Below are positions 23,983 to 45,522 of a stretch of DNA of 45,522 bases, piece after piece. The stretch comes from Alteromonas mediterranea DE (GTDB taxonomy: Bacteria > Pseudomonadota > Gammaproteobacteria > Enterobacterales > Alteromonadaceae): positions 2,707,401-2,752,922 of the forward strand of contig NC_011138.3 of NCBI RefSeq assembly GCF_000020585.3, in the 5' to 3' direction. Numbering within the stretch: the stretch's first letter is position 1; every line of letters begins with the position of its first letter. The notes beneath the pieces are model-generated. The model saw only the letters and a list, made by a program, of their open reading frames with translations, ran no database searches and was not told where the DNA came from. The translations under genes and the position numbers were made by a program.

Positions 23983-24651
23983 TCATTGTTTCAAGCTATC
24001 GATAAAATCCTGTTGCGGTGGCGTTTGCTCAGGAGGCAGCAACACAATTTTACCCACGTGCTTTTTCTCAGAGAAATCTTTTTGTGCTGTTACGATATCT
24101 TCTAGCGGGTAAGTTCTCGCTAACATAGGTTTTATTTCACCGCGTTCTATATATGAAACAAGATTCGGGAAAACCGGCTCGTCCCACGCAGTACAACCAA
24201 TAAAGGTAAGATCTTTCAAATAAAAGCTGCGCATATCAAGCGTGACTATTGGCCCTGCGATGGCGCCGGAAGAAGCGTAGCGACCACCGCGTTTCATTAC
24301 CACTGACATTTGAGTGAATCCTTCACCTGCAACGTTATCGACAACTACATCTACGGACTTTTCTCCTAACACTTCAACTAGGTCACTGTTACGTTCGATA
24401 ACGCGATCTGCACCTATTTCCATAAGCACGTCCATTTTATTTTTGCCTACAACGGCAGTAACTTGTGCACCACGGCGTTTAGCTAACTGCACAACAGCAG
24501 AACCTACACCGCCGGAAGCCCCAGTCACCAAAACATGCTCCCCTTTAGATACGCCGGCTCGGTGAACCATATTTTCAGCAGTGCCATAAGCGCAAGGTAT
24601 AGTTCCGAGTTCGGCATCCGACCAATCGCACTCGACGGCGAACGCTTCACT
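23983..24651 (-). pseudogene. MDR-family (alcohol dehydrogenase-like) gene, 3' fragment cut by an IS
   Basis: The cofactor-binding half of a medium-chain dehydrogenase/reductase. From the insertion point it reads SEAFAVECDWSDAELGTIP, then CAYGTAENMVHRAG, the nucleotide-binding motif VLVTGASGGVGSAVVQLAKRRG and a DVVVDNVAGEGF strand. The C-terminus is SLKQ. An internal ATG (24570) could start a 195-aa remnant, but this would lack the substrate domain. The frame is intact up to the IS junction; the partner 5' fragment is at 25981-26496. Without the IS it would be one gene of about 390 codons. Confidence 0.9.
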
Positions 24652-24871
24652 TATGTGGACTCCCCCTTTGTCAACAACAGTATTAGCCAGTTAAAGAATA
24701 AATGCGTGCTTATGTACGAGCTCTAATAGGGAAGCTATCCCAGGCTCTATGATATTTACGCGAACTTGTTGTCAAATCTCGATAACGAGCTCGAAGCTCT
24801 GAGCGAAGCACTGACTAAACAAGCTGATTTTCATCTTTTTTGAGCATTTTTGTTGTTGGGCAAAACCTCTA
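24652..24871 (-). ncRNA. putative bridge RNA (seekRNA) region of the IS1111-type element
   Basis: This is the 220-bp non-coding end downstream of the transposase, where the IS1111 group encodes its bridge/seekRNA. On the minus strand it contains short hairpins (GAGCT-TCG-AGCTC; GGGA/TCCC). The segment at 24801-24810 reads TGCTTCGCTC as RNA; this can pair with all 10 bases GAGTGAAGCG of the restored target, counting two G-T/U wobbles, and spans the CT core. CTTATGT (24709-24715) repeats the element's own end (24650-24656), fitting a donor guide. The boundaries of the RNA are not determined. Confidence 0.5.
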
Positions 24872-25909
24872 TTAAGCAGCGAGTAGTTCTGCTTTGTATT
24901 CTGTGCCATTTGTAAGCATCGCGAATGCCGTTCTTACTGTTTTATTTGCTAGCGCGACCGCTGTACAGCGCTTACCTCTGCGTTCAACCATCTGCTGGAT
25001 CCACATCTCTTTTTTGGTTTTTGCTGGTCGTCTCATCGCCTGATTAACTGCTGACATTGCACCGCTAACTAAGCAACTTCGTAGCATATTATTTTTAACG
25101 TACTTGCCCACCGAGCCCAATTTTACTTTACCGCCCGACGAATGTTGAATAGGCGTTAAACCAATACAGGCAGATGCATCGCGACCTTTTTCAAATTGCC
25201 CCATCTCTCCACAGCCCAGTGCCATATAAAGATTCACAGCGTTTAACGGACCTACACCTTCTAGGGCCTGTAGCGATTTACATATTTCGTGGCCGTTTGC
25301 TGCTTTTTCTAAATATAAATCGTACTGCTTTATCGACTCAATACCACGCTGGAGTTGTTGCCAGCTAGTACTGAGAGCTTGCCTAAAAACCATGGAAAAG
25401 CCATTTTCAGCATCTTCCAGTACGCCTTCAACAACGCCACTTAACCCTCCCTGACTAGGCGAGATTCGGATATTAAACTCTAGCAATAAAGATTTAATTT
25501 GTTGCTGCATTGCGACTTTATGCTTAACGGCCAACTCTCGCAGACGAACCAAGGTTTGTAGCTCTTGCTGCTCTTTTGATTTGCCGTTAATAAACGAAAC
25601 ATCGGTGAGTTGAGCAGCTTGCGCAACCGCTAAGGCGTCGTTTTTATCTGTTTTCTGATTTTGCCTAACACTAGCAACCAATTTTGCTGAAATTAATCGA
25701 GCATCATGCCCATATTCCAACGCTTTTTGCTTCCAGTAGTTTGATGTACTACATGCTTCAAAAACAATTGTCATTGGTTTTGACGACGCTAGCCAAGAAC
25801 CAAATTCTATCGGTGTCATCGCCTGATTAGACTGCACCTTGTTGCGTTTACAAACGCAAACCTGAATTTCTTCTTTCGCTAAATCAACACCTGTGATTAT
25901 ATTGTGCAT
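24872..25909 (-). CDS. IS110-family transposase (RuvC-like DEDD recombinase)
   Basis: The protein is 345 aa, taking ATG 25909 with GGAG 6 nt upstream; an ATG 12 nt earlier is also in frame. The N-terminal DEDD domain has Asp9 in TGVDLAKEE, Glu51 in TIVFEACST, and Asp88/Asp91 in KTDKNDALAVAQAAQ. A coiled linker follows. The C-terminal Transposase_20 domain has LEGVGPLNAVNLY and ACIGLTPIQHSSGGK with the expected catalytic Ser. There are no internal stops and the length is normal, so the element may be active. IS110-family enzymes use an RNA to choose target and donor DNA. Confidence 0.95.
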   Translation of the reverse strand: MHNIITGVDLAKEEIQVCVCKRNKVQSNQAMTPIEFGSWLASSKPMTIVFEACSTSNYWKQKALEYGHDARLISAKLVASVRQNQKTDKNDALAVAQAAQLTDVSFINGKSKEQQELQTLVRLRELAVKHKVAMQQQIKSLLLEFNIRISPSQGGLSGVVEGVLEDAENGFSMVFRQALSTSWQQLQRGIESIKQYDLYLEKAANGHEICKSLQALEGVGPLNAVNLYMALGCGEMGQFEKGRDASACIGLTPIQHSSGGKVKLGSVGKYVKNNMLRSCLVSGAMSAVNQAMRRPAKTKKEMWIQQMVERRGKRCTAVALANKTVRTAFAMLTNGTEYKAELLAA

Positions 25910-25980
25910 GTTGGACTCCATAATATTTTTTGTGTGAGAACTAAAATATTAACCCAGCTCACTGAGTTGGGGGAGTCCAA

Positions 25981-26496
25981 TTATCTCGCCGTTATTTTTA
26001 CGTACTGGGCGAAAGCACCATCGAAGTCTGACGCCATCCAAATATTTTCTAGTGAGTCCCAAGAATCTTTACGAATGCAAGAACGTATTAAAATTCGCTC
26101 TCCGATACGTGTAGGGTCCACGCCTTCCCCAACCGCCACGATTCGACCACAACAGTCAGTCCCTTGAATAAACGGAAACGGGGTTTGTTCATTCCATCCA
26201 CCGTCTAACTCTTCTGCTGCGCTTGATTTCTCTTCGTCATTCTCGTCCAACGCGTCAGTGCCTTGAGTGACTTTAGAAGAATACCAACCTAATCGAGTAT
26301 TAATTTCTGTATTATTGACACCAGCTGCTAAAACCTGAACTAGCACCTCGCCAGCAAGTGGTTTTGGCATGGGGACATCGGTGTAATTTAACTGCTCATA
26401 ACCACCGTTCGCCATGGTCACCAAAGCCTTCATAGTCGTATCATCAGGTTTTACATCGAATCTTTGCTTGTCGCCAAGCAAGCTAGTAATACTCAT
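25981..26496 (-). pseudogene. MDR-family (alcohol dehydrogenase-like) gene, 5' fragment cut by an IS
   Basis: The N-terminal, GroES-like half. It starts at ATG 26496 (MSITSLLGDKQRF) after AGAGAG, with MKALVTMANGGYEQLNYTDVP, VLAAGVNNTEINTRLGWYS and QGTDCCGRIVAVGEGVDP, and ends VKITA followed by an Arg and a stop supplied by the IS end. A middle stretch rich in Asp/Glu (DALDENDEEKSSAAEE) is unusual for the family but keeps the frame. The frame continues exactly in the fragment at 23983-24651. The protein is expected to be non-functional while the IS is present. Confidence 0.9.
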
Positions 26497-45322: not shown

Positions 45323-45411
45323 GGTTATCCCAATAGAAAAAGAGAAAGATAATAACAGATCTATATCACTGCAACAGATAGCAACAGCCTCACCTTCAAT
45401 ATTTACATATC

Positions 45412-45522
45412 GAGTAGGGTGAGGCTTGCGCCTCATCCCTCTCACAGAACCGTACGTACGGGCCTCGTATACGGCTCCTGCATACTTCATATCACTTGCT
45501 AAGTGACACAATGCTAATTTGC
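45412..45522 (-). mobile_element. 3' end of a group II intron (domains V and VI), continuing past the window
   Basis: Read on the minus strand, 45477-45447 is a 31-nt domain V: GAGCCGTA opens it with the catalytic AGC triad, and TACGGTTC closes it. The tip is slightly unusual (ACG-AGGCC-CGT). A domain VI stem-loop follows at about 45444-45412, GAGGC-GCAA-GCCTC with GGG/CCC below and an unpaired A. Upstream is a CACTT/AAGTG hairpin. The element lies about 90 bp before hopJ in the same orientation. The 5' end and any reverse transcriptase are outside the window. Confidence 0.75.

Follow-up and report, generated by a model that had tools for sequence, protein, structure and literature searches.

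The 3' non-coding end of an IS1111-type element in the chromosome of Alteromonas mediterranea DE very probably encodes a bridge RNA (seekRNA) with two guide loops. The element lies in the window, as we call the whole stretch of 45,522 nucleotides analysed here (contig NC_011138.3, positions 2,707,401 to 2,752,922). This reading draws on sequence comparison, namely on the element ends, the uninterrupted target in orthologues, a conserved RNA fold and the fact that both target guides and the right-end guide covary with the sequences that they would recognise.

The element and its insertion site

The element is intact, about 1.33 kb long and oriented on the minus strand (24652-25984). Its bounds, deduced from ends common to its relatives and from empty sites in orthologues, are the span between two CT/AG cores, and the ownership of the 2-bp core is ambiguous. 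The core dinucleotide, AG in the transposase sense (CT on the plus strand), occupies 24650-24651 at the right end and 25985-25986 at the left end (both minus strand). AG was present at both ends in 44 of the 45 elements of the first collection described below, a count obtained with an end-search pattern that itself contained AG and allowed two mismatches. Subterminal inverted repeats of 11 bp are found at the right (24656-24666) and left (25969-25979) ends on the minus strand, inside the range of 7-17 bp given for the IS1111 group by Durrant et al. (2024; PMC11208160). The transposase gene (24872-25921, minus strand) has an intact frame of 349 aa, and the Pfam domains PF01548 and PF02371, both over their cut-offs, place the product among the IS110-type DEDD transposases at the level of domains rather than of single residues. 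A phmmer search of the transposase against solved structures gave no match at E 1e-3. Downstream of the gene lies a non-coding stretch of 220 bp (24652-24871), long as in the IS1111 group. Judged by these sequence features, the element is a member of the IS1111 group of the IS110 family.

The genome carries seven copies. Subtype A comprises the window copy (L001), L002 (99.8% identical to it) and L003 (90%); subtype B (L004-L007) is a sister element, present in four copies at 68% identity to the window copy.

The window copy interrupts a dehydrogenase gene. Comparison with orthologues places the left half of the interrupted target at 25987-25994 and the right half at 24641-24649 (both minus strand), the latter also being recognised by its pairing with the right guide. 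Among 40 same-genus genomes searched, three contain close orthologues without the interruption, with open frames of 402, 402 and 424 aa whose identity to the N-terminal part is 98, 96 and 94%. Their junction sequences are GGCGAG/CGAAGCC (L187), AGCAAG/TGAAGCC (L188) and GGCAAG/CGAAGCG (L189). The target that the first-pass annotation had rebuilt from the two dehydrogenase fragments is therefore correct, the same sequence standing uninterrupted in these orthologues. Compared with the three of them, the insertion is exact and without duplication beyond the shared 2-bp core.

The match first noticed and its chance expectation

The proposal of a bridge RNA began with a complementarity between the non-coding end and the rebuilt target. 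Its letters and coordinates hold: TGCTTCGCTC is the reverse complement of 24801-24810, and all 10 of its positions can pair with GAGTGAAGCG (two G-U), so that the complementarity is real. Lengthened to AGTGCTTCGCTC and GAGTGAAGCGTT, the pairing covers 12 nt with three G-U, and the L187 target forms Watson-Crick pairs with the right guide across GAGCGAAGC. When 24652-24871 was shuffled with dinucleotide composition kept, a 10/10 match to the same 10-mer appeared in 109 of 5000 shuffles, and a run of at least 12 nt including a core base in 17 of 1000. The earlier rough estimate of about 1% was thus of the right order, the shuffles giving about 2%. With the last 12 bases of the region set aside before shuffling, 85 of 5000 shuffles contained the 7-nt copy ACATAAG. 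In its own genome, GCGAGCGMAGCG occurs in two places and TANYRAGCGAAGC in eight, compared with three and one for the reversed-pattern controls; the first of these counts is uninformative, since its control is found in three places. A single 10-nt match is only moderately improbable and would not convince by itself. It is the covariation of guides and targets among relatives that lifts the match clear of chance.

A conserved RNA fold in the non-coding end

The predicted structured part of the RNA covers 24704-24835 (minus strand), as suggested by the fold and by compensatory changes; these are the bounds of the predicted structure. In the predicted fold of the window RNA, a long stem opens into an internal loop, where the two target guides flank a small hairpin; the two donor guides lie in a second loop, which GCGU/ACGC closes. 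Taken alone, this fold is unremarkable (z -1.63, with 11 of 200 shuffles folding equally well). The fold was examined on an alignment of 28 chosen elements, from which the divergent AGATGTAT group, L036, L040 and L042 were left out. Of 26 predicted pairs, 15 still pair after two-sided changes in at least one sequence. Paired cells amount to 97.1% for the counted structure and 80.4% in shuffles, and the covariation score is 0.460 compared with 0.141, none of 500 shuffles reaching as high. Copies of the structure slid along the alignment gave 29.2-42.1% paired cells, a comparison that favours the structure over its slid versions, having been derived from the very alignment on which it was scored. 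Conserved structure in the non-coding end had been named beforehand as something that a guide RNA should display, and the fold is indeed kept through compensatory changes at those 15 of 26 pairs. No Rfam family reached its gathering threshold over 24652-24871. Elsewhere in the window, 45409-45479 on the minus strand matches an Rfam group II intron family (RF00029, 47.5 bits).

Two target guides that covary with targets

The right target guide, TGCTTCGCTC (24801-24810, minus strand), pairs with the top strand of the target over the core and the right side. The left target guide, TTATCGAG (24778-24785, minus strand), pairs with the bottom strand over the left side and the core. At the window insertion only 4 nt of the left guide are paired, core included. 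The guide architecture, which the first-pass annotation had suspected to consist of split guides and had resolved only in part, now takes the form of two target guides in one loop and two donor guides in the other, with the amendment that the left target guide fits the window site over these 4 nt only.

For the comparison with relatives, one scan of genome contigs gave 60 loci, which together with the seven own copies made 67. Of these, 45 yielded a complete element whose two ends fitted the pattern, the other 22 being without an end or a fitting end pair, and the last 235 nt of the 45 elements were aligned. Further loci contributed 11 new elements (L068-L159, 92 loci), of which L091 was then removed for ends that disagree, and 14 more (L160-L185, 26 loci), bringing the total to 69 elements. 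Loci whose ends fell outside the patterns were left out, and same-length copies differing at fewer than 5 positions from one already included were dropped (e.g. L069). Viral contigs were also scanned for relatives, and none of 74 pattern matches was confirmed.

In a blind scan, every column of the alignment was set against 42 target positions in 24 non-redundant members of the first 45 elements. The targets were permuted 300 times for z-scores and 100 times for the null maximum. The top identity diagonal joined columns 128-132 to target positions -5 to -1 (z-sum 27.5, null maximum 9.2), the bases being identical in 21, 19, 21, 22 and 23 of the 24 rows. The top complement diagonal joined columns 103-107 to positions +7 to +3 (z-sum 17.0, null maximum 9.0). 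In the window the two winning diagonals map to 24778-24785 (identity) and 24801-24810 (complement). When the scan was rerun on all 69 elements at redundancy limits of 75, 70 and 65%, the same diagonals won, with z-sums of 29.5 and 21.0 (27 rows), 26.8 and 18.1 (21 rows) and 19.6 and 13.0 (14 rows) against null maxima of 8.0-9.5. The permutation of targets ignores the relatedness of elements; kinship is an unlikely source of the signal, since shared ancestry should lift columns everywhere, and in the rerun no diagonal outside the two guide regions exceeded 7.7.

The 24 elements outside the first 45 served as a held-out set, in which the own target of each was ranked against the others. With the right guide the own target was strictly best in 13 of 24 and best or tied in 16 (mean rank fraction 0.092, 0.5 expected). 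With the left guide it was strictly best in 6 and best or tied in 10 (0.128, 0.5 expected), with L079 and L080, whose left-guide region was not located, scored as 0. Among the first 45, the corresponding values are 8 and 19 of 45 for the right guide (0.123) and 2 and 13 of 45 for the left guide (0.204). Ties are frequent because related elements have targets in common. In the held-out set the right guide failed in L131, L133 and L173, and the left guide was weak in L165, L175 and L184. In L131, L133 and L173 the left guide fits the left flank and the right guide misfits the right flank, which was possibly rearranged later.

Natural retargeting is seen between elements with 81-87% identical transposases. 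L010, for instance, has the guide GCTTCGCTTA and a target with A in place of G before the core, and L011 the guide GGCTCGG for the target CCGAGCC. As in seekRNAs, there are two target guides, and the top-strand match lies 5' of the bottom-strand match. The guide columns of other copies, which had been singled out in advance as the place to look, covary with their targets far above permuted targets, and do so in held-out elements as well.

Copies in the genome and attC-like sites

Identical guides at unrelated targets would, according to the first-pass annotation, speak against guidance by this RNA. The three subtype-A copies share the right guide, and their targets share the paired motif. Their locations differ: L001 sits in the dehydrogenase gene, L002 in a region of short frames only and L003 within a long frame. 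Pairing with the right guide covers 12 nt in L001, 8 nt in L002 and 9 nt in L003, wobbles included (the last two read by eye). The left guide pairs over 4 nt only in L001 and fits partially in L002 and L003. In subtype B the guide reads GCTGCGCTC and the targets GAGCGCAGC; compared with subtype A (GCTTCGCTC, GAGCGAAGC), guide and targets differ in a matching way. The target of L069, a near-copy of subtype B, is CCAGCGAG/CGAAGCG, with one mismatch to the subtype-B guide.

L004-L007 lie in four nearly identical sites that look attC-like. Their surroundings and those of L033, a relative from Alteromonas aquimaris in which both guides fit TACCGAG/CGAAGC, are presumably attC-like sequence, as judged by eye from attC motifs. 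An integron integrase over the curated cut-off is encoded at 672102-673049 of the chromosome, 3 kb away from L005 and 16 kb from L006. An attC site as target of the window copy was rejected, the copy sitting within the dehydrogenase gene. With its full right-guide match, weak left-guide match and location inside a metabolic gene, the window copy looks, from its sequence context, like a secondary-site insertion. On this reading, with attC called by eye, the usual target of subtype A would be attC-like.

Donor guides, element ends and core

The putative right-end guide, TACATAAG (24709-24716, minus strand), is a copy of ACATAAG at 24650-24656. The motif CTTATGT does occur at 24709 and 24650, as had been claimed, and its proposed role as a donor guide can be specified as that of the right-end guide, which changes together with the right end in relatives. 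The natural pairs of right-end guide and right end are TACATAAG/CACATAAG and TATATAAG/CATATAAG. In the pattern by which the guide was located several bases were fixed, and the tested positions were open (the third any base, the seventh A or C). At its third base the right end carries C in 52 of the 69 elements and T in the other 17; the RNA copy agrees in 68/69, matching every T-end and 51 C-ends, and the one remaining C-end goes with a copy that has A. In the four elements whose core starts with C (ends CATATACG or CATATACA), all four RNA copies follow with C; they also all end in G, which makes a wobble with the two CATATACA ends.

The candidate left-end guide, AAATATC (24751-24757, minus strand), was assigned by position and from a partial table of relatives, and forms 6 of 7 pairs with GATAATT at 25979-25985. 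The single internal A-A mismatch is common to many relatives. In the table, which is partial in that a wrong stretch was taken in 11 of 69 rows, the guide is mostly AAATATC for left ends AGATAATT (one mismatch), AAATTATC for AGATGATT, ATACATC or a variant of it for AGATGTAT, ATACATTG for CAATGTAT and again ATACATC for CGATGTAT. The match of donor guides to element ends is thus seen by direct count for the right end and by this table for the left.

A tree was built from 54 of the 69 transposases, leaving out fragments below 300 aa and identical proteins; it is unrooted and does not give the direction of change. The five classes of right end and core require five label changes on it. The T-form right end appears in two groups that stand apart; the two rows with core CG form a supported group, as do the two with CA. 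L175, L181, L177 and L179 have the core CG or CA instead of AG, and the changed core is carried, wholly or by wobble, in their right ends, right-end guides and left target guides.

At the junction of the circular form, 54 of 69 elements would have a promoter-like -35 box that departs from TTGACA by no more than one base and lies 16-18 bases upstream of GATAAT or GATGAT; nine are without a -35 box and six have it at other spacings.

Proposed mechanism and alternative explanations

The minus-strand RNA is predicted to fold into two loops, the first with both target guides and the second with the left-end and right-end guides. By analogy with published relatives, it would be expressed and bound by the DEDD transposase, which would use it to bring circle junction and target into contact and would catalyse their recombination at the shared AG/CT core. 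Expression may start from the promoter-like TTGACA-N18-GATAAT of the junction.

A fortuitous match in a region without guide function would be in keeping with the appearance of the 10-nt complementarity in about 2% of shuffles, but the same columns pair with differing targets in relatives, far above permuted targets and also in held-out elements, which leaves this explanation with a negligible probability. Scarcely more credible is a conserved RNA with another role, such as transposase regulation, next to a protein that picks the target alone: a conserved fold suits many RNA functions, but a regulatory RNA has no cause to track both strands of each element's target. Both chance complementarity and protein-only target choice were rejected on the covariation of guides and targets, held-out elements included.

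Two further alternatives leave guidance of the target in place. The window copy might be a dead relic whose RNA no longer works, as the weak fit of the left guide to its own site could suggest; with transposase frame, ends and guides intact and a 99.8% identical copy elsewhere in the genome, we regard this as improbable. A somewhat better case, though still an unlikely one, can be made for a seekRNA that serves target choice only, in which loop one selects the target, the protein reads the ends via the inverted repeats and loop two does something else. In ISEc11, according to PMC11187229, a short seekRNA of 82 nt is enough for movement. Against this, the right-end copy in loop two changes along with the end in each of two groups that stand apart on the transposase tree, and it also follows the first base of the core. 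We favour the bridge RNA with four guides, and consider it likely that IS1111 elements in nature use such a complete RNA, that donor guides co-evolve with the ends and that lineages have switched the core (AG, CG, CA), with ends and guides following. If this holds, the target-only seekRNA is an incomplete picture of IS1111 movement.

Comparison with known systems

Target choice by IS1111 elements has been published as RNA-guided (PMC11187229), and bridge RNAs with possible donor-binding nucleotides were predicted in 93.0% of IS1111 elements (PMC11208160), donor binding being predicted there by inspection of six elements from both groups (Durrant et al., 2024). Among open-licence PubMed Central papers, searched by title and start of abstract, no report of natural donor-guide covariation in IS1111 was found. 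RNA guidance is already known for IS1111; what is usefully added here is that donor guides and ends change together in nature. This co-change of second loop and ends makes the recognition of own ends by IS1111 directly testable. In addition, the collection provides a family of IS1111 elements reprogrammed in nature to many differing targets, and bridge-RNA guides prove readable from raw sequence and checkable by covariation alone.

The window RNA resembles the seekRNAs of ISEc11, ISKpn4, ISPst6 and ISPa11 (Siddiquee et al., 2024; PMC11187229) in coming from the non-coding region 3' of the transposase gene, in having guides for both target strands with the top-strand match 5' of the bottom-strand match, and in the lack of target duplication. 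It differs from them in element and targets, and its second loop with donor guides, known from sequence, is supported by natural co-change with the ends. With the IS621 bridge RNA and predicted IS1111 bridge RNAs such as that of ISPa11 (PMC11208160), it shares a target-guide loop, a donor-guide loop and the CT core; unlike in IS621, the RNA lies at the opposite end of the element and the right guide precedes the left guide in each loop. The subtype-B copies and L033, in attC-like sequence, and the integron integrase near two copies recall the IS1111-attC group (Tetu and Holmes, 2008, cited in PMC11187229), which inserts in attC sites of integron cassettes, whereas the window copy and L003 lie in long frames and L002 among short ones.
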